Source of the DNA: a bacterium
Lineage (GTDB): Bacteria > Cyanobacteriota > Vampirovibrionia > Gastranaerophilales > Gastranaerophilaceae
Assembly (NCBI GenBank): GCA_017403285.1
Contig: JAFQOI010000162.1
Span: 1 to 37,977, forward strand
Reading direction: 5' to 3'
Length of the DNA: 37,977 bases
In this document: positions 4,032 to 37,561 of the stretch, piece by piece
How the letters are laid out: each line of letters starts with the position of its first letter
Numbering within the stretch: position 1 is the first letter of the stretch
Notes under the pieces: generated by a model
Told to the model about the DNA's origin: nothing
Seen by the model: only the letters and a program-made list of their open reading frames with translations
Databases searched by the model: none
Program-made: the position numbers and the translations under genes

Positions 4032-4625
4032 ATGAGATATTGGTTCTTTATACTTGTTATAGTTGTAAATTTTGTTTTTTGTACATTGTCTTGTGCTGCT
4101 GAAGATGATAAAAATGCGTCTTGGGGTGCAAATTCGTCAGTCTTTAATGAAGGATTTAGTGATCAAAAACCTGTTACTGATGCGAGTTTTCAAAAGACTG
4201 TAAAAATGTTAAAGGAACGTTCTCTTTCTAAAAAGCAAAAAAAATTAAGAAACGAAGTACAACCATTTTCTCCAATGTCTGATGAGACTTATCTTAAAAA
4301 TTTTGTAGATGAACAAACCGCAGAAGATGGTACTGCTAAAGAACATACAGTAATGATACCAATGAAGGCATATTCTTCTACAGGAGAAGTAATTTTCCCA
4401 GGGTATTATAGATTGTCTTGTCGAAAAATAGCAAAAGATATGTATATGCTTGATTTATCGCAAGGTACAAACAAGGTTCTATCTGTAACTGCCCAACAAA
4501 CCAAACAAGACTTAGGTGCTGACACGCTCTCTTTTGGTGATGCAAAAGTAATTGATGATAGTAGAATACGCCTCATATATGGAACTATAGAACTAAATTT
4601 GGTTGGTTATTTGTATTTTAAATAA
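4032..4625 (+). CDS. Exported protein of unknown function
   Basis: 197 residues with a Sec signal peptide (MRYWFFILVIVVNFVFCTLSC, then AAEDD; a lipobox-like LSC is possible but not canonical). The mature N-terminal half is polar and probably disordered (SLSKKQKKLRNEVQPFSP). The C-terminal ~90 residues look like a small beta domain (TVMIPMKAYSSTGEVIFPG, then IRLIYGTIELNLVGYLYFK). The stop overlaps the convergent nifS 3' end by eight bases. No SD precedes the ATG, and a -10 box sits six bases upstream. Not recognised; periplasmic or surface location inferred. Confidence 0.65.
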   Translation: MRYWFFILVIVVNFVFCTLSCAAEDDKNASWGANSSVFNEGFSDQKPVTDASFQKTVKMLKERSLSKKQKKLRNEVQPFSPMSDETYLKNFVDEQTAEDGTAKEHTVMIPMKAYSSTGEVIFPGYYRLSCRKIAKDMYMLDLSQGTNKVLSVTAQQTKQDLGADTLSFGDAKVIDDSRIRLIYGTIELNLVGYLYFK

Positions 4626-5826
4626 GACCTTTGCGTCTTTTTAATTCTGCAAGTTCTTTTTGGAATGGTGAAATTTTGGTTAGTTTTTCCATTATTTTAG
4701 GCATTTTTTCTATAGTGAAATCAATTTCTTCTTCTGTATTATATCTGCTAAGACTAAACCTAATACTTCCGTGGAGCGCAGTAAATGGAATTCCCATTGC
4801 TTTTAATACATGGCTTGGGTCGAGACTTCCTGATGTACAAGCGCTTCCTGAACTTGCGCATATTCCATAGTCGTTCATGTTTAGAAGTATTAATTCACCC
4901 TCTACATATTCAAAACCTATATTTGTTGTATTTGGAACTCTATTTTGAGATGAAGAATTCAGTCTTGCATTATATATTTTTGAAAGAATAGCGGTTTCTA
5001 GTTTGTCTCTTAATCTTTTAACTGTGGTAAGTTCGTATTCTAAACTATCTTGCGCCATTTGTGCTGCTTTTGCCATACCAACAATATAAGGAACATTTTC
5101 TGTCCCTGCACGTTTACCACTTTCTTGATGTCCTCCAATTACAAGAGGTGTTATAAGATTTGGTGATTTTATGTAAAGTGCCCCAATTCCTTTTGGCGCG
5201 TGGAATTTATGACCAGAAATGCCCATAAAATCAATTTCTGTATTTTGTACGTCAAGTTTTATTTTGCCAGCAGTTTGAACGGCATCAACAAATATTTTTG
5301 TATTTCTATTTTTTGATTTTACTTTTTCTGCAATTTCTTCAACAGGGAAAATGGTTCCTGTCTCATTGTTTGCGTACATACAAGATACTAAAGCAGTTTT
5401 TTCATTAACAGCATCGTATAGTTCATCTTCGTTAATTTCCCCTATCGAATTAACTCCAATATAAGTTATTTTATAACCCTCTTTTTCAAGTTGTTTGTGA
5501 AGATTAAGAACACAAGGATGTTCTACTTTTGTTGTAATGAGGTGGTTCTTTGAACGATCAGCAGACAAAATGCCTCTTATTGCCGTGTTTGCGCTTTCTG
5601 AGCCAGAAGCAGTAAAAAGTATTTCTTTTGCATTTTTTGCGCCAAAAAACTCTTTTATTGTTTCTCGTGATTCTTGAATAACTTTAGAATTTTTCCCACC
5701 AAGTTCATACATGCTTGATGGATTTCCGTAGTTTTCTGAAAAATATGGAAGCATTGCTTCTACTACTTTTTTATCAACTTTTGTTGTTGCGTTATTATCT
5801 AAATATATTATTCTAGAGTTTGTCAT
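4618..5826 (-). CDS. nifS: Cysteine desulfurase, NifS/IscS class I
   Basis: 402 residues, the normal length. Seen: YLDNNATTK at the N-terminus, the PLP-binding Lys in SGHKFHAPKG (K207), and the catalytic Cys in SSGSACTSGSLDPSHV (C330). The extended loop around C330 places it with the NifS/IscS class I enzymes, not SufS. Known reaction: L-cysteine to L-alanine plus a persulfide on the catalytic Cys, which is passed to the scaffold. One base separates the end of nifU from this ATG, so the two are co-transcribed and co-translated. With no nif structural genes in view, it is probably the general Fe-S supply for the many Fe-S proteins in this window. Confidence 0.95.
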   Translation of the reverse strand: MTNSRIIYLDNNATTKVDKKVVEAMLPYFSENYGNPSSMYELGGKNSKVIQESRETIKEFFGAKNAKEILFTASGSESANTAIRGILSADRSKNHLITTKVEHPCVLNLHKQLEKEGYKITYIGVNSIGEINEDELYDAVNEKTALVSCMYANNETGTIFPVEEIAEKVKSKNRNTKIFVDAVQTAGKIKLDVQNTEIDFMGISGHKFHAPKGIGALYIKSPNLITPLVIGGHQESGKRAGTENVPYIVGMAKAAQMAQDSLEYELTTVKRLRDKLETAILSKIYNARLNSSSQNRVPNTTNIGFEYVEGELILLNMNDYGICASSGSACTSGSLDPSHVLKAMGIPFTALHGSIRFSLSRYNTEEEIDFTIEKMPKIMEKLTKISPFQKELAELKRRKGLI

Positions 5827-5827
5827 T

Positions 5828-6646
5828 TTACACCTGAATGATTTCTATATTGTCATTAATATGTTCTTTTAATGTTGCTTCAACGAAGTGCGTTAGTGTT
5901 AGTTTTGAACGATTACAAGATTGGCATCGTCCAGAAAGTTTTACTTTTATCTGATAATCTTCAACATCAATAAGTTCAATATCGCCACCATCTTTTCTTA
6001 GTTCTGGAGATATATATTTTTCAATAATGTTATTGATTTTTATAATCATTTGAGTTTTTGTAAGTTGTTCTTCTTTTTGTTGTTGTACTCCATTTATTTC
6101 ATCAAGAATATCTTTTATTTTACCTTGACATCTGCCACAAGCACCACCTGCTTTTGTATAGTTAATAACATCTTCAAGTGTTTTAAGACTATTGGCTTTT
6201 ATTTCATTAATTAAGAATGATTTAGAAATATCAAAACAATTACAAACAAGTTCTTCATCATTATGTATTGTTATTTCTTCGTTATAATAATTTGCAATTG
6301 CTGCTTCTAATGCTTCATGCCCCATAACAGAACAGTGCATCTTTTCAGGAGGCAGTCCTCCAAGTTCATCTACAATTTGTTTATTTGTTATTTTTCTTGC
6401 TTCATCAATGTGTTTGCCGATAACCATTTCAGTTAAGATGCTAGAACTTGCAACAGCACTTCCGCAACCAAACGTTTGAAATTTTGCATCAGTAATAATT
6501 CCGTTTTTATCCACCTTTAAATATAGTTTTAGCATGTCTCCACAAGAAAGTGAGCCCGCTTCTCCTATTGCGTCAGCATCTTCTATAGAGCCAACATTTC
6601 TTGGGTTTTTGTAGTGATCAACAACTTTATCTGTATAATTCCACAT
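5828..6646 (-). CDS. nifU: Fe-S cluster scaffold NifU, three-domain
   Basis: 272 residues from ATG 6646 (MWNYTDKV), chosen because GAGGCGG lies about seven bases upstream; the in-frame ATG at 6661 would put the SD inside the gene. Domains in order: an IscU-like scaffold (residues 1-125) with C35, C61 and C105; a BFD-like permanent [2Fe-2S] domain with CNC (C135, C137) and CGRC (C170, C173); and a C-terminal Nfu domain with CQSC (C241, C244). In the Nfu motif the usual CxxCPSS reads CQSCNRS, so the proline is missing. Known: NifU receives sulfur from NifS and builds clusters for delivery. It is first in a nifU-nifS operon. Confidence 0.95.
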   Translation of the reverse strand: MWNYTDKVVDHYKNPRNVGSIEDADAIGEAGSLSCGDMLKLYLKVDKNGIITDAKFQTFGCGSAVASSSILTEMVIGKHIDEARKITNKQIVDELGGLPPEKMHCSVMGHEALEAAIANYYNEEITIHNDEELVCNCFDISKSFLINEIKANSLKTLEDVINYTKAGGACGRCQGKIKDILDEINGVQQQKEEQLTKTQMIIKINNIIEKYISPELRKDGGDIELIDVEDYQIKVKLSGRCQSCNRSKLTLTHFVEATLKEHINDNIEIIQV

Positions 6647-6755
6647 AATAATCCGCCTCATTCTTTTCTTATTTCATTATAACGCAAAGAAAAAAAACAA
6701 CCTTATATGAAAGTGTAATTTGTAGTATTATGATTTAAGAAAATTTGGTGCGAAT

Positions 6756-25689: not shown

Positions 25690-26936
25690 CTTAAATTCTT
25701 TACTCCAATTGTTCTTGCTAATGCATATTTATAATCTTTTGGTCCTTGTGATAATTCAATAAGAGAAACATCATTTGTATTTGAAAGAGGTTTTTCTTCT
25801 TTTTCTTTTTCATCGGTAATTTTTGTAACTTTCGCTCTAAAGCATTCATCAGGCGTGATTATTTCAATTTCATCGTTTAAAAGGAATTTATTTTTAGTTA
25901 GTACTTTATATTTATCACCAACTTTATCTAAGAACACGCAAAGACAATCAGCCCCTGCAAGTCCTTTTGATATGTCGTAACTATACCCTTCACTGTCTGG
26001 TTTATGTAAATAAAAACCAGTAGTGTATCCACGATTCCCTATTTTAATAATTTCGTTATAATTTTTTTCTTTATTGATTGTTCCTGTTGTTAAATAGTCA
26101 TCAATTGCTTTGCGATAAACCTTGGCAACCGCTGATACATAATAAAGACTTTTTGTTCTACCTTCAATTTTAAATGAATCAATACCAATATCTATAAGTT
26201 CTGGTAGATAGTTGATTAGGGCAAGGTCTTTAGGGCTTAGTATGTGCGTGCCCTGTCCATTTTCTTCAATATCAAAATATTCGCCTTCTCTTGTTTCTTC
26301 AACAAGTTTGTAACTCCAACGGCAAGATTGTGAACAATTTCCGTGATTTGCTTTTCTTTCTCCTTTTGTCATATAGTCGCTTATCAAACATCTTCCTGAA
26401 AAAGAAACGCACTGTGCTCCGTGAATAAATACCTCATATTCCATATCTGGAACTTTATTTTTAATTTCTGATATTTGGTCAAGTGATAAATCCCTTGATA
26501 AAACAACTCTTTCTGCGCCTAAATCTTGCCAAAATTTAACTGCCTCATAGTTTAATATATTTGTTTGTGTGCTGACGTGCAATGGAATTTCGGGCATGTA
26601 TTTTTTTATCAGATTATAAACTCCAAAATCTGAAAATAAAATAGCATCAGGCTTCGCATCATTTATTCTTTCTGCCGATTCAATCATTTTTTTAATATCG
26701 TTGTTATATGCAAAAATATTTAAAGTTAAATAAACTTTTTTGTTCATTGAATGTGCTAATTCAATGCATTCTTTTAAGTTGTCGATTGTTATTAATTCGC
26801 CTTTACGCATTGCTCTAAGACTAAAGTCAACCATTCCAAGATAAACAGCATCAGCGCCATAGTGTATTGCATAGTCTAATTTTTCTTTGCTACCTGCTGG
26901 TAATAATAATTCTGGTTTCTTAATCGTTTTCATCAT
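25686..26936 (-). CDS. U32-family protein (TrhP-like tRNA hydroxylation)
   Basis: 416 residues. Seen: PELLLPAGSKEKLDYAIHYGADAVYLG at the start; HVSTQTNILNYEAVKFWQDLGAERVVLSRDL; and the four-Cys block IHGAQCVSFSGRCLIS...GNCSQSCRWSY, the likely Fe-S site. Then KDLALINYLPELIDIGIDSFKIEGR. Known: proteins called peptidase U32 include TrhP/YegQ and RlhA, which hydroxylate tRNA or rRNA uridine/cytidine. The C-terminal domain present here fits the TrhP branch. It overlaps the FlhA-like gene by 17 bases. I do not support a protease role. Confidence 0.85.
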   Translation of the reverse strand: MMKTIKKPELLLPAGSKEKLDYAIHYGADAVYLGMVDFSLRAMRKGELITIDNLKECIELAHSMNKKVYLTLNIFAYNNDIKKMIESAERINDAKPDAILFSDFGVYNLIKKYMPEIPLHVSTQTNILNYEAVKFWQDLGAERVVLSRDLSLDQISEIKNKVPDMEYEVFIHGAQCVSFSGRCLISDYMTKGERKANHGNCSQSCRWSYKLVEETREGEYFDIEENGQGTHILSPKDLALINYLPELIDIGIDSFKIEGRTKSLYYVSAVAKVYRKAIDDYLTTGTINKEKNYNEIIKIGNRGYTTGFYLHKPDSEGYSYDISKGLAGADCLCVFLDKVGDKYKVLTKNKFLLNDEIEIITPDECFRAKVTKITDEKEKEEKPLSNTNDVSLIELSQGPKDYKYALARTIGVKNLR

Positions 26937-28413
26937 AAGGACATTCTACTATAAAATTATCTTTTTCCATATCATATATTATTTGAAAAGCGATATAATC
27001 GGTATCTGTTGAATGTTTTGAATATTTAATATACTTTTCCATAACGTAATTGATATCTTTTAATGAATAATTCTTTTCAAGTATTTTAATTAAAACTTCT
27101 TTCAACTCTATAAGATCCACGTTGTTTCTAATGTTACTTTTATTATGGTTTTGGCTATATGAAAAGAACAAGTTTAAATATCCTGCAACAAATTCTTCTG
27201 TAACAATAAGACGAACATTTTTCATTAATATCTGAGAAAATATTTTCCTAAAATATTTTGCTCCTGTATAATATTGTTTTTTATCTAAGTTTTTGCAATA
27301 GTTTTCGTCTACAATATAGTATGTTCCAAATATTGTTTCTTCTTTTTTGAAATTATCATTAATTTCAATATTATATTTGTTTTTTTGTTCTTCCGTAATA
27401 ACATAGTCAACAGCACTTATATCAATGTGAAATACTTCTTTGCTTCTTATAAAAATTTTGTATCCTGATTTGACAAGACTATTATCTATATACCTAATAT
27501 CGGGAAGAATTAGTCCATATTTGTGAATAAAATCGAGTCTTATTTCAGAAGCAATTGGCAACATTATATCTTTTTCTTCAGGGTCAACATAGGGTACTTC
27601 TTCTTTTGAAACATCAACTCTTACTATATCTATACCTAAATGTAAATAATCAGGTGGATTAATGTATTTTTTTAAATCATTAATTTTTTTATTTGACTTA
27701 TTCATGTAATAAGGAAAAGAAAAAGCCAAAAGAATTATTACGATTAATACTATTTTGTATATATTCAATATAGTTTCTGTGCTTTTTACTGGTGATACTA
27801 TTGCAAATAGTAGAGATATTGATAAAAATATGATTATTGTGCCAAGTTGTTCTTTGTAATTAATTTTAGAAAAAATAAATTCTGTTGTTTTATTTTTTAA
27901 GTATAATTTTTTCTGATTTAAGTATTCTGATAGTCGTTTAAATGGCGTAAGCGCGTATTCTCCAACAGGAAGTTTGTGTTGCTCTTTCATTTTTGTAAAT
28001 TCTTCATTAATCGCCTTGGATACTTTTTCAAGTATTTCTTCGTTTGTTAGATTCTGTGCGCTATAGTTAACAAGTTCTTTACTAATTGTTTTTATTTGTG
28101 ATTCGAAAAATGCATATTTTTGCATAGTGCTTATAGGTGCTTCTTGCCAAAAGAACAATCTTACAGATTCATTTATTAGTGTTATCAAAATCTCATTAAA
28201 ATCTTTTGCAAGTTCAGGGTTATGAATTATATTTTGAACTTCAAAGGTTTTCTTTTTTTGAATATATACTTTCCAGAAAATAGAAGAATAGTATCTTTCC
28301 ACAATTTCATCAATAATTGCATAATCTTCTTCTGTTGGTAATTCGCTATAGTAACTATTGTTAATTCCTTTATGTAAATCTTCTATAAAAATCTTTGTAT
28401 ATTTGTTTTGCAT
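26920..28413 (-). CDS. Membrane protein with FlhA/SctV-like cytosolic C-terminal domain
   Basis: 497 residues. Residues 1-190 are helical and polar with no family I know. Two membrane helices lie at 191-207 and 216-236. Residues ~256-485 follow the order of the FlhA/SctV export-gate cytoplasmic domain: LHLGIDIVRV...VDPEEKDIMLPIASEIR, then HKYGLILPDIRYIDN and YKIFIRSKEV; ETIFGTYYIVDE (like PaFG..a.WI); and at the end LIELKEVLIKILEKNYSLKDINYVMEKY (like vL..LL.E.vsIrdl..ILE). FlhA has eight membrane helices; this has two, so it cannot form the same channel part. It overlaps the U32 gene by 17 bases and follows a radical SAM gene by 17. Role unknown. Confidence 0.7.
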   Translation of the reverse strand: MQNKYTKIFIEDLHKGINNSYYSELPTEEDYAIIDEIVERYYSSIFWKVYIQKKKTFEVQNIIHNPELAKDFNEILITLINESVRLFFWQEAPISTMQKYAFFESQIKTISKELVNYSAQNLTNEEILEKVSKAINEEFTKMKEQHKLPVGEYALTPFKRLSEYLNQKKLYLKNKTTEFIFSKINYKEQLGTIIIFLSISLLFAIVSPVKSTETILNIYKIVLIVIILLAFSFPYYMNKSNKKINDLKKYINPPDYLHLGIDIVRVDVSKEEVPYVDPEEKDIMLPIASEIRLDFIHKYGLILPDIRYIDNSLVKSGYKIFIRSKEVFHIDISAVDYVITEEQKNKYNIEINDNFKKEETIFGTYYIVDENYCKNLDKKQYYTGAKYFRKIFSQILMKNVRLIVTEEFVAGYLNLFFSYSQNHNKSNIRNNVDLIELKEVLIKILEKNYSLKDINYVMEKYIKYSKHSTDTDYIAFQIIYDMEKDNFIVECPYDEND

Positions 28414-28430: not shown

Positions 28431-29459
28431 TCATTTATTTTTTTTTCCAAAAAAGAAATGTAAATTTGCTTTTATTTTTGTTAATGTTGATATTTTGCGG
28501 CAGTTGTATACTTTATTTTCAATAATAGCATCTGCCCAATTTTGCTCGCAAAGAGTCATATTGTATTTTTTTGCTTGTTGCGCAAAATATTCATATGCTT
28601 TAATAACAGAAGTTTCTATTGCTTTGTTTTTTGTATTCATTTTGCTTTCAAGATGATCAACAGACCGTACTACGGATGTGATTCCTATCGATTTTGCAAC
28701 TTCAAAAAATTTGTCTATTTCCTTTTTGTTGTCATTTACATTTGGAAGTACAATATATTTTAGTCTTACTTTGTATGAGTTTTCTTTTGTATCTTCAATG
28801 TATTGTTTTAAAGTGTTTATAACTTCATCAAATTTATCAACTCTTTTGATTCTTTTAAATGTTTCTTTTGTTCCACAATCTAGTGAAATGCAAATTTTAT
28901 TGTCATTATGTGCGTTTAGCATATCAGAAATCAATTTTTCATATTTGATTCCATTTGTAAGGACTTCTAGTTTGCATCCTTTTTTTATTAATAGGCTGAG
29001 AATTTCTGGAAATTCCTGAAGCATAGTTGGTTCACCACCCATAAATGCAATAAAGCTTTTTTCTGTTATTCTTCCTTCTGCTATCAGTTTTTTGATAAAT
29101 GGTAGTGAGTCATAATCATCACTTTTTTTAATGCTTTCGTTAAAATCAGAATGAACTGAACAGTAAAAACAAGCAGCATTGCAGTGTTTCCAGTTGAATA
29201 CAGTTATTTTGTATATTTTGGCATCAAATTCTTTCCAGTCTTTTAATTCTAACAGTGGACATTCTTTGCAACGTTCAGGTATGATGCCATTTTTCATTTC
29301 TTCAATGATTTTCAACCTGCGTTCTTCGTTTTTGTTAAATGCATCATTTCCTTTATAAGAAATATATTCAGGGCCTTCCCATACCTCATTACAGTACTTA
29401 AATCCTGAAAAACTTAAATCTATACTACCTAATATATGGTCACAACATTTGTATTCCAA
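28431..29459 (-). CDS. Radical SAM protein, type 2, with N-terminal Cys block
   Basis: 342 residues from TTG 29459, chosen because AAGGAG (29467-29472) lies seven bases upstream. The in-frame ATG 29486 falls inside the -10 box. Seen: N-terminal C5, C6, C23, C64 and C67; radical SAM core C93-x3-C97-x2-C100 (HCNAACFYC); MGGEPTML; ISLDCGTKETFKRIKRVDKF; LKYIVLPNVNDNKKE. The C-terminus is a basic amphipathic tail (LTKIKANLHFFFGKKNK). It heads the minus-strand run with the FlhA-like and U32 genes, and is divergent from the next cluster member. Substrate unknown. Confidence 0.9.
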   Translation of the reverse strand: MEYKCCDHILGSIDLSFSGFKYCNEVWEGPEYISYKGNDAFNKNEERRLKIIEEMKNGIIPERCKECPLLELKDWKEFDAKIYKITVFNWKHCNAACFYCSVHSDFNESIKKSDDYDSLPFIKKLIAEGRITEKSFIAFMGGEPTMLQEFPEILSLLIKKGCKLEVLTNGIKYEKLISDMLNAHNDNKICISLDCGTKETFKRIKRVDKFDEVINTLKQYIEDTKENSYKVRLKYIVLPNVNDNKKEIDKFFEVAKSIGITSVVRSVDHLESKMNTKNKAIETSVIKAYEYFAQQAKKYNMTLCEQNWADAIIENKVYNCRKISTLTKIKANLHFFFGKKNK

Positions 29460-29466
29460 AAATATG

Positions 29467-29472
29467 CTCCTT
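29467..29472 (-). promoter_or_regulatory. SD deciding the TTG start at 29459
   Basis: AAGGAG on the minus strand with seven-base spacing to TTG. With this start the CxxxCxxC falls at residue 93, as in the sibling proteins. Confidence 0.7.
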
Positions 29473-29484
29473 TTTCCTAAAATC

Positions 29485-29493
29485 ATTATAGCA
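29485..29493 (-). promoter_or_regulatory. Extended -10 of the minus-strand radical SAM operon
   Basis: TGC-TATAAT on the minus strand. It abuts the plus-strand box at 29494-29502, giving back-to-back promoters in the 61-base divergent spacer. The predicted leader is about 20 bases and contains the SD. Confidence 0.5.
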
Positions 29494-29502
29494 TGTTATA
29501 CT
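29494..29502 (+). promoter_or_regulatory. Extended -10 of the plus-strand radical SAM operon
   Basis: TGT-TATACT, 18 bases before ATG 29521. It would drive the five genes 29521-34590. The -35 is weak, as expected for an extended -10 promoter. Confidence 0.5.
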
Positions 29503-29520
29503 ATTCGTGCGGGTTAAATT

Positions 29521-30525
29521 ATGACTATAAAAAAAGCGATATGTACATTCCCATTTAATGCAGCACAAATAAGTATGCAAGGTGAAGTCTTTGTGTGTTG
29601 TCCACCTTGGTGTAAATCTTATTCTTTTGGTAATATATTTGAACAATCTTTTGATGAAATTTGGAATGGCGATAAAGCAAAAGAATTTAGACGTCAGTTT
29701 ATTGATGATGATTATAAATATTGTGATTTAAATTTGTGTGTAAAAGATTGTTCTCAGGATATTATTCCAACTGAAATGGTAAAAAAACCAGAAACATTCA
29801 TATTTTGTTATGATTCAATGTGTAATGTAAAATGTATTTTTTGCAGAAGTTGCCACGAAAAACAAGATTTGACATATTTTGATAATAATATGGACGAAAT
29901 AATTTTAAATATGTTAGAAAATGCAAAAAATGTTGTATTGTCTGGAGTTGGAGAAGCGCTATTTAGCCCACATTCTAGAAAACTTATAAAGAGAATATCG
30001 CAGTTATACCCACATATAAAATTTTCGTTAATTACAAATGGTATTTTATGTGACGAACAAAATTTAAAAGACTTGGAAATCATAGATAAGCTTTTGTCTA
30101 TAACGGTTTCATTACACGCTGTTAAAAAGGTTACTTATGATAGGCTTGTTGTTAATGGTGATTTTGATAAAGTAATGAATAATCTTGCTTTTCTTTCTCA
30201 ATTGAAAAAAGAAAATAAAATGGACAGATTTATTCTAAATTTTGTAGTTAATGCATATAACTATAAAGAAATGCCTGAATATATAAAAATGGCTGATGAA
30301 ATAGGTGCAACCGTTGGATTTTTAGAACTTTTAAAATTGGAAACCAATGAAAGTGTGTATGAAAAATTAAATATAGCAAATGAAAAACATCCTCAATACA
30401 ATGACTTTGTTAAATTGATGAAAAATCCTATCTTTAAGAGTGGTAAATGTACAATAAATGATGAAATGCTCAACTTAAAACCAATATCATTTTACAAAGT
30501 TTTAAAATATAGATTTTTCAAGTAA
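29521..30525 (+). CDS. Radical SAM protein, type 1, N-terminal SPASM-like domain
   Basis: 334 residues. Residues 1-80 read as a SPASM-type auxiliary cluster domain: C8, the QGEVFVCC turn (C26, C27), C31, SFGNIFEQSFDEIWNG, then C68, C73 and C77. The radical SAM core follows: C101-x3-C105-x2-C108 (MCNVKCIFC). The usual GGEP is GVGEAL, and TVSLHA is present downstream. The protein ends in a basic aromatic tail (FYKVLKYRFFK). In most SPASM proteins this domain is C-terminal; here it comes first. First gene of a five-gene plus-strand run; the next starts 31 bases on. Substrate unknown. Confidence 0.9.
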   Translation: MTIKKAICTFPFNAAQISMQGEVFVCCPPWCKSYSFGNIFEQSFDEIWNGDKAKEFRRQFIDDDYKYCDLNLCVKDCSQDIIPTEMVKKPETFIFCYDSMCNVKCIFCRSCHEKQDLTYFDNNMDEIILNMLENAKNVVLSGVGEALFSPHSRKLIKRISQLYPHIKFSLITNGILCDEQNLKDLEIIDKLLSITVSLHAVKKVTYDRLVVNGDFDKVMNNLAFLSQLKKENKMDRFILNFVVNAYNYKEMPEYIKMADEIGATVGFLELLKLETNESVYEKLNIANEKHPQYNDFVKLMKNPIFKSGKCTINDEMLNLKPISFYKVLKYRFFK

Positions 30526-30556
30526 AATAAAACATATAGTATTTACGAGGTTTGAG

Positions 30557-31540
30557 ATGGCTTATTTATCATGCGAATTTGTTGAAAACGGAATGTGTTT
30601 TATCTACGATGCAGCGGTGCTTTGTAGTTATTCAATGTGTATGAAATTTGAAGCAATAAAAATCATTGAAGATTATAAAGGTGAACTTTTTGATTGGGAT
30701 AAAGTAAGACAAATTAAGCAAGAATATCGTGATAGATTCGCAAAAAATGATATTCCTCCAATCTGTCAAGGATGCCCTAGTTTGAAGTGTAAAGACTGGA
30801 ATGGAGATATGCAATTAAAATATATCCTTATAAATCATTGGGAAAATTGTCAACTTGATTGCATTTATTGCCATACTCACGAAAGAAAAAAAGAATTAAA
30901 TAAAATGAAACCTTGGAAAATTCTTCCAGTATTGAAGGATGCTCTTAAAAATAATATGTTGAGTAATGAAGGTAATGTTAATATTACTGGTGGAGAACCT
31001 ACAATATTAAAGGAATTCCCTGATTTGATGAAATTTTTTCTTACTAAAACAAATATTTTCATAATGATTAATACAGCAGCAGTTGATTATTCTAAATGGA
31101 TACGAAAGGCAATAGAACTTCGTAGAGCAGCACCTACAATTTCTTTAGATGCTGGAACAAGAGAAACTTATAAAAAAATAAAAAATGTAGATTGTTTCAA
31201 GAAAGTAGTTAATAATATTAAAAAATATAAAAAAGGCTTAGACCCAATACAGACAAGTTTAATAGGGATGAAGTACATTTTTATTCCTGGGTATAACGAT
31301 ACTTTAGAGGAAGTCCAAAGTTGGCTTAAACTTGTTGAAGAATTGGGTATGACAAATATTCAACTTGAACTAGAACATCACTGGTATGAGAAAAATAAAT
31401 ATTTGCCAGATAATGTTAAGGAATATATTGAATTAGTTGTGAAATATGTTCATGAACATAAATGTAATTTGTCTTATCGTGAAATACTAACAACCTGCGG
31501 TTATACAGAAGTTATTAGATATATAAATAATGGCAGATAA
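30557..31540 (+). CDS. Radical SAM protein, type 2
   Basis: 327 residues. The SD GAGG precedes ATG 30557. Seven N-terminal Cys: C6, C14, C23, C28, C70, C73 and C78, the last group in IPPICQGCPSLKC. Core C98-x3-C102-x2-C105 (NCQLDCIYC), TGGEPTIL (GGEP 145-148), TISLDAGTRETYKKIKNVDC and MKYIFIPGYNDTLEE. It shares well over a third of its residues with the next gene, starting with the same MAYLSCEFVENG. It has none of the GNIFEQSFDEIWNG block of type 1. Its role relative to its type 1 neighbours is open. Confidence 0.9.
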   Translation: MAYLSCEFVENGMCFIYDAAVLCSYSMCMKFEAIKIIEDYKGELFDWDKVRQIKQEYRDRFAKNDIPPICQGCPSLKCKDWNGDMQLKYILINHWENCQLDCIYCHTHERKKELNKMKPWKILPVLKDALKNNMLSNEGNVNITGGEPTILKEFPDLMKFFLTKTNIFIMINTAAVDYSKWIRKAIELRRAAPTISLDAGTRETYKKIKNVDCFKKVVNNIKKYKKGLDPIQTSLIGMKYIFIPGYNDTLEEVQSWLKLVEELGMTNIQLELEHHWYEKNKYLPDNVKEYIELVVKYVHEHKCNLSYREILTTCGYTEVIRYINNGR

Positions 31541-31554
31541 AACAAGGATTAAGT

Positions 31555-32556
31555 ATGGCTTATTTATCTTGCGAATTTGTTGAAAATGGAATATGTTTTT
31601 TAGTCGATTCTGTAATGATATGCTGTTATGCAATGAGCATTGGACATCAAGGACTTTGTATTTCTCCTAAATTTGTAGGTCAGGAACTAGATTGGGAAGA
31701 AGTTATTAATATAAAACAAGAAATCCGTGAGCGGTTTGCGAAAAATGATATTCCATCTGCTTGTTTAGAGTGTCCTCGCCTTAAAAATAAAGAATGGAAA
31801 GATAAAAATAAATTTAATTATATTCTTATAAATCACTGGAATAACTGTAATATGAAATGTATTTACTGCTATACCAGAGATAGAAAAAAAGAATTTAACA
31901 AAATGATTCCATATAAAATCTTACCTGTGTTAAAAGATGCTGTGAAAAATAAAATGTTAACAGAGGATTGTTGGATTGATATTACAGGTGGAGAACCTTT
32001 AGTATTGAAAGAATTTCCTGATTTGATGAAATTTATAATAGAGGAAACGACCGCAACTGTACTTGTTAATACTGCGGGGACGGATTATTCAAAATGGATA
32101 AAAAAAGGGTTAGTGCAAGGTAGGGTTTCTCCAACTATTTCACTAGATGCAGGAACAAGAGAAACATATAAAAAGATAAAAGGGTTTGATTATTTTAAAA
32201 AAGTTATAAATAATGTGAAAAAATATCAAAAAGGATTAGATGAAGTTAAAAATAGTTTAATATCATTGAAATACATTTTTATACCTGAAATAAATGACAA
32301 TATTGATGAACTTCAATGTTGGTTAAATTTAGTTGAAGAATTGGGAATAAAAAATATAAAACTTGAAATTGAACATGAATGGTATTTGAAAAACAAGTTT
32401 GTCCCAGAGAATATAAGGGAATATATTGAGTACGTTAAAGATTTTACACATCGTTATAAATGCAATTTGTCTTATCGTGAATTGTTAGTTCATATTGGGT
32501 ATAATAAAGACGAAATTCATTATATAGAGAACGGATTGTGGTATAATCATAACTAA
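31555..32556 (+). CDS. Radical SAM protein, type 2, tandem duplicate of 30557
   Basis: 333 residues. It begins MAYLSCEFVENGICF, and long blocks repeat the previous protein: RFAKNDIP, YILINHW, KILPVLKDA, KEFPDLMKF, TISLDAGTRETYKKIK, HKCNLSYRE-like KCNLSYREL. N-terminal Cys: C6, C14, C23, C24, C70 and C73. Core C98-x3-C102-x2-C105 (NCNMKCIYC). GGEP at 145-148. The two genes arose by duplication, but the C-terminal thirds and the loops after the core differ, so substrates may too. The SD AAGGA lies seven bases before the ATG; its stop overlaps the next start by one base. Confidence 0.9.
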   Translation: MAYLSCEFVENGICFLVDSVMICCYAMSIGHQGLCISPKFVGQELDWEEVINIKQEIRERFAKNDIPSACLECPRLKNKEWKDKNKFNYILINHWNNCNMKCIYCYTRDRKKEFNKMIPYKILPVLKDAVKNKMLTEDCWIDITGGEPLVLKEFPDLMKFIIEETTATVLVNTAGTDYSKWIKKGLVQGRVSPTISLDAGTRETYKKIKGFDYFKKVINNVKKYQKGLDEVKNSLISLKYIFIPEINDNIDELQCWLNLVEELGIKNIKLEIEHEWYLKNKFVPENIREYIEYVKDFTHRYKCNLSYRELLVHIGYNKDEIHYIENGLWYNHN

Positions 32557-33584
32557 TGAGAAAACATACATACTGTCCTAATCCATATATACTTGCTGAA
32601 ATTATGCCCTATGGGTATGTTTATCCTTGCAGTTGTGGATGGATAAGAGGATATTCTTTCGGGAATATTTTTGAACAATCTTTTGATGAAATATGGAATG
32701 GGGAAAAAGCTCAAGAATTTAGACAGAAATTGTTTGATAATGATTTTTCTTTATGTCCAGGGTGTCAAAATCTTGAAATATTACAAGAAGCGGATACTAA
32801 AAATGCGAAACTTGTTTCACCATCACCTGAGAGAATTCTTTTAGGTCTTGATGAATTTTGTGATGTTAAGTGTATTTTCTGTAGAGGTGAAAATTATAAA
32901 ATAAACACAAATCTTATTCCAGAAGATAAGAAAGATAAGTTGATAGACATTTTATCGCCTTGGTTGACAGGAGCGAAATATGTTAAAACAAATGCTGTGG
33001 GGGAGGTTTTTGCAAGTAAAATTTCAAGGGATTTGATAAAACAAATTGCAAAAAATTTTCCACATATTAAATTTGAAATTATAACAAATGGTATACAGTG
33101 CACGAAAGAAAATATAGAAGAACTAAATATTTCTAACAAAATTTCTATGATGACGGTTTCTTTGCACGCTATTAAAGAAAAAACTTATAATAAACTCGTT
33201 AAGGGTGGGAATTTTAAAAAAGTTCTTGTAAATTTAGAATATCTTTCTGAATTAAAGAAGAATGGTAGAATTGAAAGATTTGAGTTGCATTTTACTGTAA
33301 CTTCGATTAATTATAAAGAAATTCCTGATATGATTAAATATGCTAGAAAAATTGGTGCGAAGATTAGATTTTTAGGACTTGATTGTTCAAGAGATTTAGA
33401 AAAATTATATAATAAAATCAATATTCAAGATAAAAGGCATCCTAAGTATAATTCTCTTGTAAAAATTGCGCATACAAAAGAATTCTTGAACGCAAAAGAT
33501 ATAATTGAGCAAGGCTATGATTATTTTGTAGGGCTTGAAAGAATATCGTTTAATGAAAAAATAAAGAGATTTTTCAATGGATAA
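32556..33584 (+). CDS. Radical SAM protein, type 1, N-terminal SPASM-like domain
   Basis: 342 residues. N-terminal Cys: C7, C25, C27, C67 and C70 (CPGC), with YGYVYPCSCGW and SFGNIFEQSFDEIWNGEKAQ between. Core C102-x3-C106-x2-C109 (FCDVKCIFC). The glycine motif reads NAVGEVFAS and the later motif TVSLHAIKEKTYNKLVKGGN. It has fewer auxiliary Cys than the type 1 gene at 29521, so its extra cluster may be different or incomplete. Basic C-terminal tail (FNEKIKRFFNG). ATG shares a base with the previous stop; its own end overlaps the next gene by eight bases. Confidence 0.9.
   Translation: MRKHTYCPNPYILAEIMPYGYVYPCSCGWIRGYSFGNIFEQSFDEIWNGEKAQEFRQKLFDNDFSLCPGCQNLEILQEADTKNAKLVSPSPERILLGLDEFCDVKCIFCRGENYKINTNLIPEDKKDKLIDILSPWLTGAKYVKTNAVGEVFASKISRDLIKQIAKNFPHIKFEIITNGIQCTKENIEELNISNKISMMTVSLHAIKEKTYNKLVKGGNFKKVLVNLEYLSELKKNGRIERFELHFTVTSINYKEIPDMIKYARKIGAKIRFLGLDCSRDLEKLYNKINIQDKRHPKYNSLVKIAHTKEFLNAKDIIEQGYDYFVGLERISFNEKIKRFFNG
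32661..32701 (+). repeat. 41-base exact match with 33676-33716
   Basis: The segment coding GNIFEQSFDEIWNG in the 32556 gene is identical over 41 bases to 33676-33716 in the next gene, including third codon positions. The same segment in the 29521 gene differs at several bases. Confidence 0.85.
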
Positions 33585-34590
33585 AATTTGCAAACATCCT
33601 TTTAATAGTATACAGGTTCAAAATACAGGTGAAATATACTGTTGTTGTTGTTATTGGACTGGTTTTTATTCATTTGGGAATATTTTTGAACAATCTTTTG
33701 ATGAAATATGGAATGGTGAAAAAGCGCAAGCGTTTAGAAAACAATTTATTGAAAAGCAATTTAAATATTGTAAGTTGGATGTTTGCGATCCTTTTGTTGC
33801 AGAGTCTGCTTATAAAGTAGATTTAAAAGTTGATTATCCAAAATTGATTGAATTTAGTTATGACAGAAGATGTAATGTAAGGTGTATTTTTTGCAGAAAT
33901 GAAATTAATCCAGAAGAAGAACTCTATAATAGGCAAAAAGAAAAGCGTATTGAAGAAAATTTTGATAGAATATTTACACCTATTTTACAAAAGGCAGAAA
34001 TTGTTGAATTGAATTCTGCGGGTGAATTATTTGCAAGTCCACATTCTGTTGAAATTGTAAAAAAAATAATAAAGATAAATCCAAATATAAAATTCAGAAT
34101 TATTTCTAATGGTATATTGTTTAATAAAAAAATTATTGATGAACTTTGCTTGAAAGATAAACTTACTTCTGTAACGATTTCAATACACGCGGCAAGTATA
34201 AAAACATACAATAAACTTGTTGAAAGAGGGGACTTTAATGCAATTATTGAAAATGTTAAATATTTATCAGAATTAAAAAAACAGGGCTATTTATCGGTGT
34301 TACAGTTAAATTTTGTAGTGACAGCAATTAACTATAAAGAAATGAAAGATTTTGCTAAATTTGCAAAAAAAATGGATGCTAAGGCGTTTTTTATAAACTA
34401 TCATAGACAAATTGATTCTGATGAACTGGAAAAACAGTTAGATATAACAAATAAAGAGCATCCTAAATATAATCAACTTGTAAGAATATTGAAGGATGAT
34501 ATTTTTAAAGAAGATTATTGTGTTGTAAATGATTATTTGATGGGGTTAAAACCTATTAGCAAAAGTCTTTTTTCTTTATTTAAAAAATGA
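33577..34590 (+). CDS. Radical SAM protein, type 1, N-terminal SPASM-like domain
   Basis: 337 residues. N-terminal Cys: C5, a run C22-C25 (EIYCCCCYW), C65 and C70. GNIFEQSFDEIWNGEKAQAF lies between. Core C99-x3-C103-x2-C106 (RCNVRCIFC). Glycine motif NSAGELFAS; TISIHAASIKTYNKLVERGD downstream; end SKSLFSLFKK, basic and aromatic. It starts eight bases inside the previous gene and ends 15 bases inside the convergent 34576 gene. The four consecutive Cys are unusual and may hold an auxiliary cluster or metal. Substrate unknown. Confidence 0.9.
   Translation: MDKICKHPFNSIQVQNTGEIYCCCCYWTGFYSFGNIFEQSFDEIWNGEKAQAFRKQFIEKQFKYCKLDVCDPFVAESAYKVDLKVDYPKLIEFSYDRRCNVRCIFCRNEINPEEELYNRQKEKRIEENFDRIFTPILQKAEIVELNSAGELFASPHSVEIVKKIIKINPNIKFRIISNGILFNKKIIDELCLKDKLTSVTISIHAASIKTYNKLVERGDFNAIIENVKYLSELKKQGYLSVLQLNFVVTAINYKEMKDFAKFAKKMDAKAFFINYHRQIDSDELEKQLDITNKEHPKYNQLVRILKDDIFKEDYCVVNDYLMGLKPISKSLFSLFKK
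33676..33716 (+). repeat. 41-base exact match with 32661-32701
   Basis: Second copy of the identical segment, at the same place in the paralogous gene. The two copies lie 1015 bases apart. Confidence 0.85.
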
Positions 34591-35568
34591 ACCTTTTGTT
34601 AAAATTTCTTCAATGTATTCCCATATTGTAGGTGTTATACCTTCTTGTGTGCATTTATTCTTGTAGAATGTAAATAGTTCATAATAGTGTGTAGGGATTT
34701 TAAATTCTCCGTTTTCCATAAATTCGCTATCGCATTGGTCTATCATTAATTCAGAATTTTTTATTCCAAGTTCTTTCATTAAGTTAATGTATTTTTCGAT
34801 TTCCTCAACACTGTCATTATATCCTCTAACAATAATATATTTGAGCCTTAATAATATTGGTAATTTCGCATATTTTTTTAAGTTATCCACAACATTTTCA
34901 AATTTATCAACAGTTTTGATTTTTTTAAATGTTTCTTTTGTTCCAGCGTCTATTGAAATATTTACATCAACAAAAGTTTTTTCTGCAATTTGCTCTATTA
35001 TAGGTAAGTATTCAATACCATTTGTTGCAATTTCAATACGCTTAACTCCATTTTTTATAAAGATACTCACTAAATCTTCAAATTCGTCAAGGACAGATAC
35101 ATTCCCTCCTTGGAAATGAACATCTAATCCCTTTTTATCAATCATATTTTGTTTGTAGAGTTCTTTGATAATAGGGAGCAAATCGTAGTAATCACTTTTT
35201 TTAGATTTTAATACAATTTTTCTTCCAGAAAGATATTGTTCGCAACAATATACACAACTGCAATCACACTGTTTAAAGTGTTTGACTATTATCATATTTG
35301 CTTTTGGCGGTGTGAAAAACAAATTTGAAAAAAAAGATTTTTGAGTTGTTTTTTCTTTTAAATCAAAACAGCCTACGCATTCGATTGGAATTATTCCTTT
35401 GTCAAGTTGTTTGATTAATGTGTTTCTCTTTTTTATTATATTTTTAATATTTTTCGGATTTGGAATGTCGCAAGAAGGACCAGTCCTTGTCCCACAACAA
35501 TAAAAGACTTTTAGGGCATCAAAATCAAGTGTTTCATATAATCTTTTACAAAAATATCTCTTTTTCAT
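34576..35568 (-). CDS. Radical SAM protein, type 2 with GGN motif
   Basis: 330 residues. N-terminal Cys: C7, C24, C25, C33, C64 and C67 (IECVGC). Core C101-x3-C105-x2-C108 (QCDCSCVYC), with an extra Cys at 103 and 109. The glycine motif reads FQGGNVSVL: GGN in place of GGE. Later: ISIDAGTKETFKKIKTVDKF and LKYIIVRGYNDSVEE. It is divergent from the 35605 gene, which shares the GGN change, and convergent with 33577 (15-base overlap). A TATAAT six bases before the ATG and no SD suggest a leaderless transcript. Substrate unknown. Confidence 0.9.
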   Translation of the reverse strand: MKKRYFCKRLYETLDFDALKVFYCCGTRTGPSCDIPNPKNIKNIIKKRNTLIKQLDKGIIPIECVGCFDLKEKTTQKSFFSNLFFTPPKANMIIVKHFKQCDCSCVYCCEQYLSGRKIVLKSKKSDYYDLLPIIKELYKQNMIDKKGLDVHFQGGNVSVLDEFEDLVSIFIKNGVKRIEIATNGIEYLPIIEQIAEKTFVDVNISIDAGTKETFKKIKTVDKFENVVDNLKKYAKLPILLRLKYIIVRGYNDSVEEIEKYINLMKELGIKNSELMIDQCDSEFMENGEFKIPTHYYELFTFYKNKCTQEGITPTIWEYIEEILTKGSFFK

Positions 35569-35574
35569 AATTTT

Positions 35575-35603
35575 ATTATACTCAATTTCTGATATTATAT
35601 TAA
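35575..35603 (-). promoter_or_regulatory. Candidate promoter of the 34576 gene
   Basis: TTAATA (35598-35603), 17 bases, TATAAT (35575-35580) on the minus strand, six bases before the start codon at 35568. It lies in a 36-base divergent spacer. Confidence 0.45.
35593..35598 (+). promoter_or_regulatory. Candidate -10 of the 35605 gene
   Basis: TATTAT six bases before ATG 35605. An alternative TATACT lies at 35577-35582. No SD. The two directions share the same spacer, so they may compete. Confidence 0.35.
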
Positions 35604-35604
35604 T

Positions 35605-36600
35605 ATGAAATTTTTAAACATATTCAAAAATAAAAAATCATATATGTGCCCATTGTTGAATACAAACTTGCATTTTACAAGTAGGAATACACTTGAGCCT
35701 TGTTGTAGTGCTAATATTGGACCAGTCCTTGTTTCTTCTCTTTCTGATAAAAAAACGATAAAATCATTTATCAAAGAAAAACAAAAATTTATAAAAATGT
35801 TAAAAAAAGGCAAAATTCCTGATGGATGCCGAAATTGTGTTCATTTGACAGAGTATAAAAAAATTGAAAATCTAAAAATAGATAAAATAACTCTAAATCA
35901 TTATACTCAATGTAATTGTGCTTGTATATATTGTACTCAAGGCAATAGGACAATAGAAAAAATTAAAGAAGATGCCAATAAACCGGTGTTGTTTGATGTT
36001 CTTAATTTTATAAATGAATTGTATGACAATGATTTAATTGATACTAAGAAGTTATATATTGATTTTCAAGGTGGAAACATTTCTTGCTTGAAAAATTATG
36101 ATGAAATAATTAATACATTTTTAAATAGAGGTGTAGGGACGATATATATTCCAACGAATAATATTGTTTATATGCCTGTTATTGAAAATCTTCTAAAAAT
36201 AAAAAAAGGTGAAATTTGTACTGCTATTGATAGTGGATCACGTGAAACTTATTTAAAAATTAAACAAGTAGATAAATTTGATAAGTCCGTTGAAAATATC
36301 AAAAAATACATTGAAAGTGCTGGGAATGACTCTATAATTATAAAATATATAATTGTAAATGGTTACAATGATAATATTGATGAATTTAGGAAATTCATTG
36401 ATTTAATGATTGATTTAAAAATAAAAGTTATCGTGGTTGACATTGATTATAGGGATATTATAGATAGATCTTTTACAATACCAAAACACTATTATGATAT
36501 TGTCGAGTATGCAAAAGATGCGTGCAAAAAGAATAATATCGATTTGGGAATTCCACCTTATACAAAAAGTGTTTTGGAAAAAGGTTATTCGGTTAAGTAG
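35605..36600 (+). CDS. Radical SAM protein, type 2 with GGN motif
   Basis: 331 residues; an internal ATG at 35644 (MCPLLNTNLHF) is an alternative start. N-terminal Cys: C15, C33, C34, C75 and C78 (DGCRNC). Core C103-x3-C107-x2-C110 (QCNCACIYC). DFQGGNISCL carries GGN instead of GGE, as in the 34576 gene, and AIDSGSRETYLKIKQVDKF follows. Both GGN genes also have a Gly-Pro after the second Cys pair (TGPSC; IGPVL). It ends eight bases inside the convergent 36593 gene. It forms a head-to-head pair with its closest sibling. Substrate unknown. Confidence 0.9.
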   Translation: MKFLNIFKNKKSYMCPLLNTNLHFTSRNTLEPCCSANIGPVLVSSLSDKKTIKSFIKEKQKFIKMLKKGKIPDGCRNCVHLTEYKKIENLKIDKITLNHYTQCNCACIYCTQGNRTIEKIKEDANKPVLFDVLNFINELYDNDLIDTKKLYIDFQGGNISCLKNYDEIINTFLNRGVGTIYIPTNNIVYMPVIENLLKIKKGEICTAIDSGSRETYLKIKQVDKFDKSVENIKKYIESAGNDSIIIKYIIVNGYNDNIDEFRKFIDLMIDLKIKVIVVDIDYRDIIDRSFTIPKHYYDIVEYAKDACKKNNIDLGIPPYTKSVLEKGYSVK

Positions 36601-37561
36601 TTTTTTGAAAGCATAAATTATAAAACTGGAATGTTTCTACATCAAACTCTTTTTTATTTGCATATTCAACACACCATTTTAAGAATTTTGAAACTTTTTT
36701 ATCTGGATTAAATGAGTTTTGTCTGCAATATCTACCGTCTATATCTATTTTTATTCCTTTTATTTTATATTTTTTTGCAAGTCCTAAAAATTTTTTGAAT
36801 TCCCATTTGCTATCATTTATTTTAGGCAAAACAATGTATTTTAAAAAAGTATTGTTTCTTGCAGTTTCTGTTTTTGTATATTCTTTAAGTGATTTTTTTA
36901 ATTTATCAAAAGCATCTACCCTTTTTATCTTTTTATACTGCTTTTTTGAACCAGAATCTATAGAAATGATTATGCAAGCTTTCCCTAAGTCCATTGCTTT
37001 AAAGATGCTTTCAGAAAAAACTATGCCATTTGTTGCTATTGCTAAAAATTTGGAAAATCCCGATAGAACATACTTCTCTATTATTTCTGTACATTCTGGA
37101 TAAATGGAAAATTCTCCACCGCCAATATGTAGTTCGCAATTTTGTTTTAAAATACCCTTTTCTCTCATATCGTCAAGAATAGGTATAATTTTGTATGTGT
37201 CTTTTTTTCTTTCTCCATTATCTAAGTTGTTTATGCAATAAATGCAATTAGAATTACATTCTTCAAAATGAGTTATATAAACTTGGTTAATGTAATTCTT
37301 TTCTGAAAAATCCCCCATTTTTAATTGATAACATTCTTGGCAACTTTTTATATATTTGCCATTTTTTGCATCATTTCTCCAGTTGTTTATCTTCTCAAAT
37401 AGGTACTCTTTATCTATTTTTTGTCCGTTATATTCTGAAACTGAATATATTAAAGGAACAAATTCATCTTCTTCATAAGGAGCATAACAACAAGAACATA
37501 CATTTTTAGGATAAAAACAAATTCCATGTTCTAGTAAATGACAACTTTTATATTCGCTCAT
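36593..37561 (-). CDS. Radical SAM protein, type 2
   Basis: 322 residues. N-terminal Cys: C7, C15, C22, C24, C25, C74 and C77 (KSCQEC). Core C102-x3-C106-x2-C109 (ECNSNCIYC). Glycine motif IGGGEFSIY, then ISIDSGSKKQYKKIKRVDAF and LKYIVLPKINDSKWE. The first 30 residues (HLLEHGICFYPKN, then CCYAP) align well with the 30557 and 31555 proteins. A TAGGGA SD lies about ten bases before ATG. The CheW-like fragment lies 24 bases upstream on the same strand, so they may share a transcript. Last of the nine radical SAM genes seen. Confidence 0.9.
   Translation of the reverse strand: MSEYKSCHLLEHGICFYPKNVCSCCYAPYEEDEFVPLIYSVSEYNGQKIDKEYLFEKINNWRNDAKNGKYIKSCQECYQLKMGDFSEKNYINQVYITHFEECNSNCIYCINNLDNGERKKDTYKIIPILDDMREKGILKQNCELHIGGGEFSIYPECTEIIEKYVLSGFSKFLAIATNGIVFSESIFKAMDLGKACIIISIDSGSKKQYKKIKRVDAFDKLKKSLKEYTKTETARNNTFLKYIVLPKINDSKWEFKKFLGLAKKYKIKGIKIDIDGRYCRQNSFNPDKKVSKFLKWCVEYANKKEFDVETFQFYNLCFQKTT

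Follow-up and report, generated by a model that had tools for sequence, protein, structure and literature searches.

In the characterised radical SAM enzymes with a SPASM or twitch auxiliary domain, this domain is located C-terminally to the radical SAM core. In the case of BtrN, a radical SAM dehydrogenase of 2-deoxy-scyllo-inosamine, the four cysteines of the twitch site are placed before and after a beta-hairpin and, as a pair, after a helix (PMC6231123; PMC9012708). The auxiliary domain is also C-terminal in the SPASM peptide maturases SuiB, anSME, and SkfB and in MoaA (GTP 3',8-cyclase), which ends in a twitch. Small genomes rich in radical SAM genes have a precedent in a T4-like marine virus with 12 of them (PMC5332604); it is viral, and can be likened to the case described below by gene count alone. 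The reverse order, a twitch/SPASM-like domain followed by the radical SAM core, is represented in NCBIfam by the family NF033640 (N_Twi_rSAM).

The window analyzed here is a stretch of 37,977 nucleotides from a genome of Candidatus Gastranaerophilales, a group of gut-dwelling, non-photosynthetic relatives of cyanobacteria. At positions 28431-37561 it contains nine intact radical SAM ORFs of 322-351 aa (Table 1), members of a family whose expansion is genuine, exceptionally large, and confined to one genus; the enzyme type is rearranged, yet not entirely new. The preliminary description of this DNA had noted nine tightly packed radical SAM genes on both strands, and this was confirmed by the ORFs, their spacing (-15 to +36 nt between genes; strands in order -,+,+,+,+,+,-,+,-), and PF04055 matches above the gathering score in all nine proteins. 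The range of 322-342 codons given there holds broadly, except that the longest ORF of gene 1 is 351 aa; the start of this gene is uncertain, because the orthologue in L021 begins 11 residues further in, which yields 340 aa. The family matches exclude a chance grouping, as does the occurrence of orthologues of the nine genes in another species with their order retained (72-96% identity). The possibility of a foreign island was rejected as well, since the cluster (GC 0.27-0.29) differs little from the window in GC content. The cluster adjoins a 497-aa gene (window 26920-28413, minus strand) that partially matches FHIPEP (flagellar/type III export); the closest relative has a counterpart with just 44% identity.

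Table 1. Radical SAM genes of the cluster and two of their auxiliary domains, in window coordinates.
Feature	Coordinates	Strand	Evidence
Gene 1, N-terminal-twitch radical SAM	28431..29486	-	PF04055 E 1.6e-17; orthologue 79% in L021/L049
Gene 2, radical SAM, N-terminal SPASM (residues 8-69)	29521..30525	+	PF13186 E 8.9e-14, PF04055 E 8.5e-11
Gene 3, radical SAM, N-terminal twitch type	30557..31540	+	PF04055 E 1.3e-16; AlphaFold mean pLDDT 91.7
Gene 3 twitch-like domain, residues 1-85	30557..30811	+	C6, hairpin 12-21, C23, helix 47-62, C70xxC73
Gene 4, radical SAM, recent tandem duplicate of gene 3 (59% identity)	31555..32556	+	PF04055
Gene 5, radical SAM, N-terminal SPASM (residues 7-71)	32556..33584	+	PF13186 E 1.6e-15, PF04055 E 3.6e-8
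Gene 6, radical SAM, N-terminal SPASM (residues 5-66)	33577..34590	+	PF13186 E 2.2e-13, PF04055 E 1.8e-13; model mean pLDDT 89.3
Gene 6 SPASM/twitch domain	33577..33789	+	C5-x12-G18-x4-C23, helix 48-58, C65, C70
Gene 7, radical SAM, N-terminal twitch type	34576..35568	-	PF04055 E 5.7e-14; orthologue 82%
Gene 8, radical SAM, N-terminal twitch type	35605..36600	+	PF04055 E 2.8e-10; orthologue 78%
Gene 9, radical SAM, N-terminal twitch type	36593..37561	-	PF04055 E 3.5e-14; orthologue 72%

Additional cysteines N-terminal to the core, noticed initially in all nine proteins, are indeed found in each of them: 5-8 cysteines precede the CxxxCxxC motif, which starts at residues 98-103. The blocks had been taken as one shared feature, but they are not alike. 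The profile search proposed in the preliminary description recovered the core domain throughout, whereas the SPASM domain PF13186 was detected at residues 5-71 of only three proteins (29521, 32556, and 33577; E 2e-13 to 2e-15), and nothing in Pfam matched ahead of the core in the remaining six. In these six twitch-type proteins, an invariant C-x16-C...CxxC set precedes the core. In the numbering of 30557, the residues C6, C23, C70, and C73, together with the three core cysteines, are invariant in 57 twitch-type homologues.

In the AlphaFold model of 30557 (pTM 0.89), C6 and C23 are separated by strands 12-16 and 19-21, and C70xxC73 is preceded by helix 47-62. The model of the SPASM-type protein 33577 has the same order of elements, and its C5-x12-G18-x4-C23 fits the beginning of the SPASM motif, CX9-15GX4C. 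Moreover, the twitch-type and SPASM-type profiles align across both domains (hhalign 98.6%). BtrN (PDB 4M7T) has a similar four-cysteine auxiliary site, with cysteines on either side of a beta-hairpin and two after a helix, and is a weak match to the core (E 7e-4); however, its twitch follows the core, whereas in the proteins considered here the auxiliary domain occupies residues 1-85 and the (beta/alpha)6 core approximately residues 90-270. Based on the invariant cysteines, the topology of the models, and the alignment of the two types over both domains, the prediction that the auxiliary domain is a twitch shifted in front of the core is well supported. Almost none of the N-terminal domain could be aligned with solved structures, since the comparison was sequential and covered mainly the core; the missing match is therefore uninformative.

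Such an arrangement is not unheard of, since NF033640 already describes it. The SPASM-type members match this family over both parts: gene 5 aligns to profile positions 2 to 316, and the N-terminal stretch of gene 2 to positions 2-61. Yet the best score among the nine proteins is 59.8 bits against a cut-off of 170, the proteins are about 330 aa long compared to the 398 positions of the model, and most of the twitch-type members among the nine match in the core only. No match to NF033640 above the cut-off was observed in 19 genomes of the order. MoaA is the top or near-top NCBIfam core match for most members, but with at most 64.6 bits versus equivalog cut-offs of 231-325, and the C-terminal twitch of MoaA is absent from these proteins.

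The cluster is a small part of the family. The preliminary description had suggested a family built by duplication, and this proved to be true on a far larger scale, with more than 40 paralogues among the 74-76 radical SAM genes of the 2.2-Mb host genome, all within one genus. The twitch-type profile has 43 matches in this genome at E 1e-15, to which a minority of SPASM-type members, no fewer than five, must be added. PF04055 was matched at E 0.01 by each of the 47 family members scanned. Most of the copies seen in the host genome are isolated or form small groups, surrounded by housekeeping genes. Family copies are present in 36 of the 39 genomes of the genus, and copy numbers vary from 0 to 50 in relatives from the same genus and from 0 to 2 in sister genera. 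A survey of 386 genomes of the phylum, limited to the five top candidates of each genome, revealed strong matches in the genus and one or two weaker ones elsewhere; the copy numbers were taken from separate genome scans.

The expansion strongly affects the total number of radical SAM genes. There are 74-82 such genes in five expanded genomes and 42 in a moderately expanded one, compared to 18-22 in six non-expanded genomes, three from the same genus and three from other genera. The three zero-copy genomes of the genus (G008, G247, and G408) have 18-19 radical SAM genes in all. By means of one family with a rearranged domain order, most of the expanded genomes have reached about four times the radical SAM count of relatives with a similar genome size. 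No published description of this expansion was found in searches of an open-access library. Mobile spread by phages or plasmids was considered and rejected: a scan of viral contigs confirmed no relative, and phage and plasmid records yielded only partial core matches below 32% identity.

The order of genes in the cluster largely recurs across the genus, at differing chromosomal sites, as revealed by the survey of related genomes that had been proposed at the outset. The relatives' clusters usually lack 31555 (gene 4), and often have extra genes inserted or the last gene missing. Gene 3 is the best conserved, with 84-96% identity across the genus. The orthologues are 66-96% identical, mostly 72-96% in the comparison with the nearest species (G259, loci L049-L055), where gene 3 reaches 96% versus 91% for AccD. 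The median dN/dS of orthologues is about 0.04, a rough value because dS is saturated; judged from these sequences, the orthologues are under strong purifying selection. In addition, two dispersed copies that were checked retain the same neighbors in more distant species. Since one-to-one orthologues are kept under purifying selection, a distinct role for each enzyme, as initially suggested, is plausible.

A single simple tandem array is ruled out by the paralogue tree: placing the nine genes on it takes six label changes, and well-supported branches force four of these. According to this tree, the nine genes descend from several old lineages, and the sole obvious recent tandem pair is 30557/31555. 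We also considered the zero-copy genomes as a basal lineage of the genus. The AccD tree unites the genus (99/99) but leaves its backbone open, making loss and late gain of the family indistinguishable.

The genomic context in other genera points to cell-surface polysaccharides. Low-copy homologues with the same N-terminal cysteine pattern are located there in polysaccharide loci, next to genes for GT2 glycosyltransferases, NeuB, polysaccharide pyruvyl transferase, and DHQ-synthase-like proteins, and one of them is a GT2-radical SAM fusion of 705 aa. Neighbors at the level of the genus include GT2, GT9, GDP-mannose dehydratase, and a DegT-like aminotransferase (named from its sequence). The glycan link comes mainly from relatives, because most copies in the host genome are found among housekeeping genes, outside polysaccharide loci. 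The number of GT2 genes is not clearly higher in expanded genomes (16-26, versus 5-20 in non-expanded ones). Sister genera also have longer radical SAM proteins with other N-terminal parts (L042:3886-5361, L043:5815-7275, L041:5568-7454, and L047:6065-7552); one of these longer proteins ends in a hexapeptide acyltransferase repeat and adjoins a PGA_cap capsule gene.

The most common recurring neighbor of the family is an SGNH-like membrane protein of about 300 residues with FGCSxAYG and HPNExxWD blocks (for example, L019:6785-7663 and L026:6841-7758). The assignment as SGNH-like was made by eye; one of 15 members matches PF13472, weakly (E 0.008), and a PDB search with the family profile found nothing. 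Cys76 in the first block is invariant in all 15 members, and the next Ser is variable. All ten expanded genomes contain 5-20 copies, whereas five of the six non-expanded genomes have none, and G008 has three, on one short contig. Of the copies in G259 and G006, two of six and four of 14, respectively, are directly adjacent to a radical SAM family member. The copy numbers of the two families do not increase in parallel. These proteins may be enzymes of acyl transfer to envelope glycans.

We propose that the genus-specific, expanded N-terminal-twitch radical SAM family modifies sugars of surface glycans, a tentative reading to which we assign a probability of roughly 45%. Surface sugars appear as the likeliest substrate because the low-copy relatives live in polysaccharide loci. 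With both cluster occupancy and chemistry read from the motifs, CxxxCxxC would bind the SAM-cleaving [4Fe-4S] cluster, and the N-terminal C...C...CxxC set would bind one auxiliary cluster. The 5'-deoxyadenosyl radical would then abstract hydrogen from the substrate, and the auxiliary cluster might serve as an electron acceptor or donor, by analogy with what was proposed for BtrN. As substrates, we favor sugars or glycan intermediates from polysaccharides of the cell envelope, which could undergo dehydrogenation, epimerisation, or deoxygenation, with the co-expanded SGNH-like membrane proteins as possible working partners. A bolder version, possible but doubtful, is that the genus has built up a combinatorial toolkit for C-H functionalisation, with 16 to 50 N-terminal-twitch enzymes per genome of about 2 Mb in most of its members, which together with the SGNH-like family would produce an undescribed, heavily radical-modified surface polymer.

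Another scenario, which we consider unlikely, is that the family consists of peptide or protein maturases (RiPP-like or anSME-like) with substrates encoded elsewhere, perhaps including the SGNH-like proteins. Enzymes that modify peptides or proteins, namely SuiB, SkfB, anSME (Z 13-16.5), and PFL-AE, are among the closest core structures; peptide maturases often contain SPASM domains; and the SGNH-like genes, with their invariant cysteine, co-occur with the family. On the other hand, the polysaccharide loci of the low-copy relatives do not fit this scenario, and genomes rich in radical SAM copies have few SGNH-like ones (6-7 alongside about 42 radical SAM copies, against 17-20 alongside 16-18). 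Unlike a RiPP cluster, the locus encodes no precursor, and gaps of at most 36 nt leave no room for such a gene; a RiPP cluster was therefore rejected for this locus, although precursors might be encoded at remote sites.

Modification of a lipid or other small envelope metabolite rather than glycans, as by Tes or HpnH, seems rather improbable. Of 47 members, 29 show a match to the profile of the tetraether lipid synthase Tes (best E 1.6e-12), but the scores are far under the 450-bit cut-off and mostly cover the core. Similarly, the best sequence match in PDB is GDGT-MAS (E 4.5e-8), yet no lipid genes recur among the neighbors. Export of a product is suggested by a conserved fusion of an N-terminal-twitch radical SAM part with a MatE transporter, common to two species: L008:8990-11275 (plus strand) in this genome and G259:C4:87551 (L055:7540-9819), 761 and 759 aa, respectively.

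An antiviral role, with viperin-like enzymes making modified nucleotides, is very improbable. PADLOC pVip models match the cores in seven of the eight proteins scanned (E 1e-8 to 2e-18), and viperin structures match both modelled cores; however, the NCBIfam viperin family NF038283, whose cut-off is 180 bits, gives scores no higher than about 50, and the similarity is confined to the core, where MoaA profiles score equally or higher in most of the nine proteins. Viperins are not known to have an N-terminal auxiliary cluster domain. Finally, a selfish or drifting gene family without coherent function, as the dispersal among housekeeping genes and the variation from 0 to 50 copies might suggest, is hardly credible given the low dN/dS, the intact core motifs, and the one-to-one orthologues, two of them checked at conserved positions in more distant species.

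Genomes of the same genus with and without the expansion provide a natural contrast for finding the product. If the enzymes do act on surface sugars, the family would give access to many unassigned radical chemistries of uncultured gut bacteria, and would test whether an auxiliary cluster performs just as well when placed N-terminally.

Elsewhere in the window (4618-6661, minus strand), a class-V aminotransferase resembling cysteine desulfurase adjoins a three-domain NifU protein. This pair likely provides Fe-S supply for the many Fe-S enzymes.
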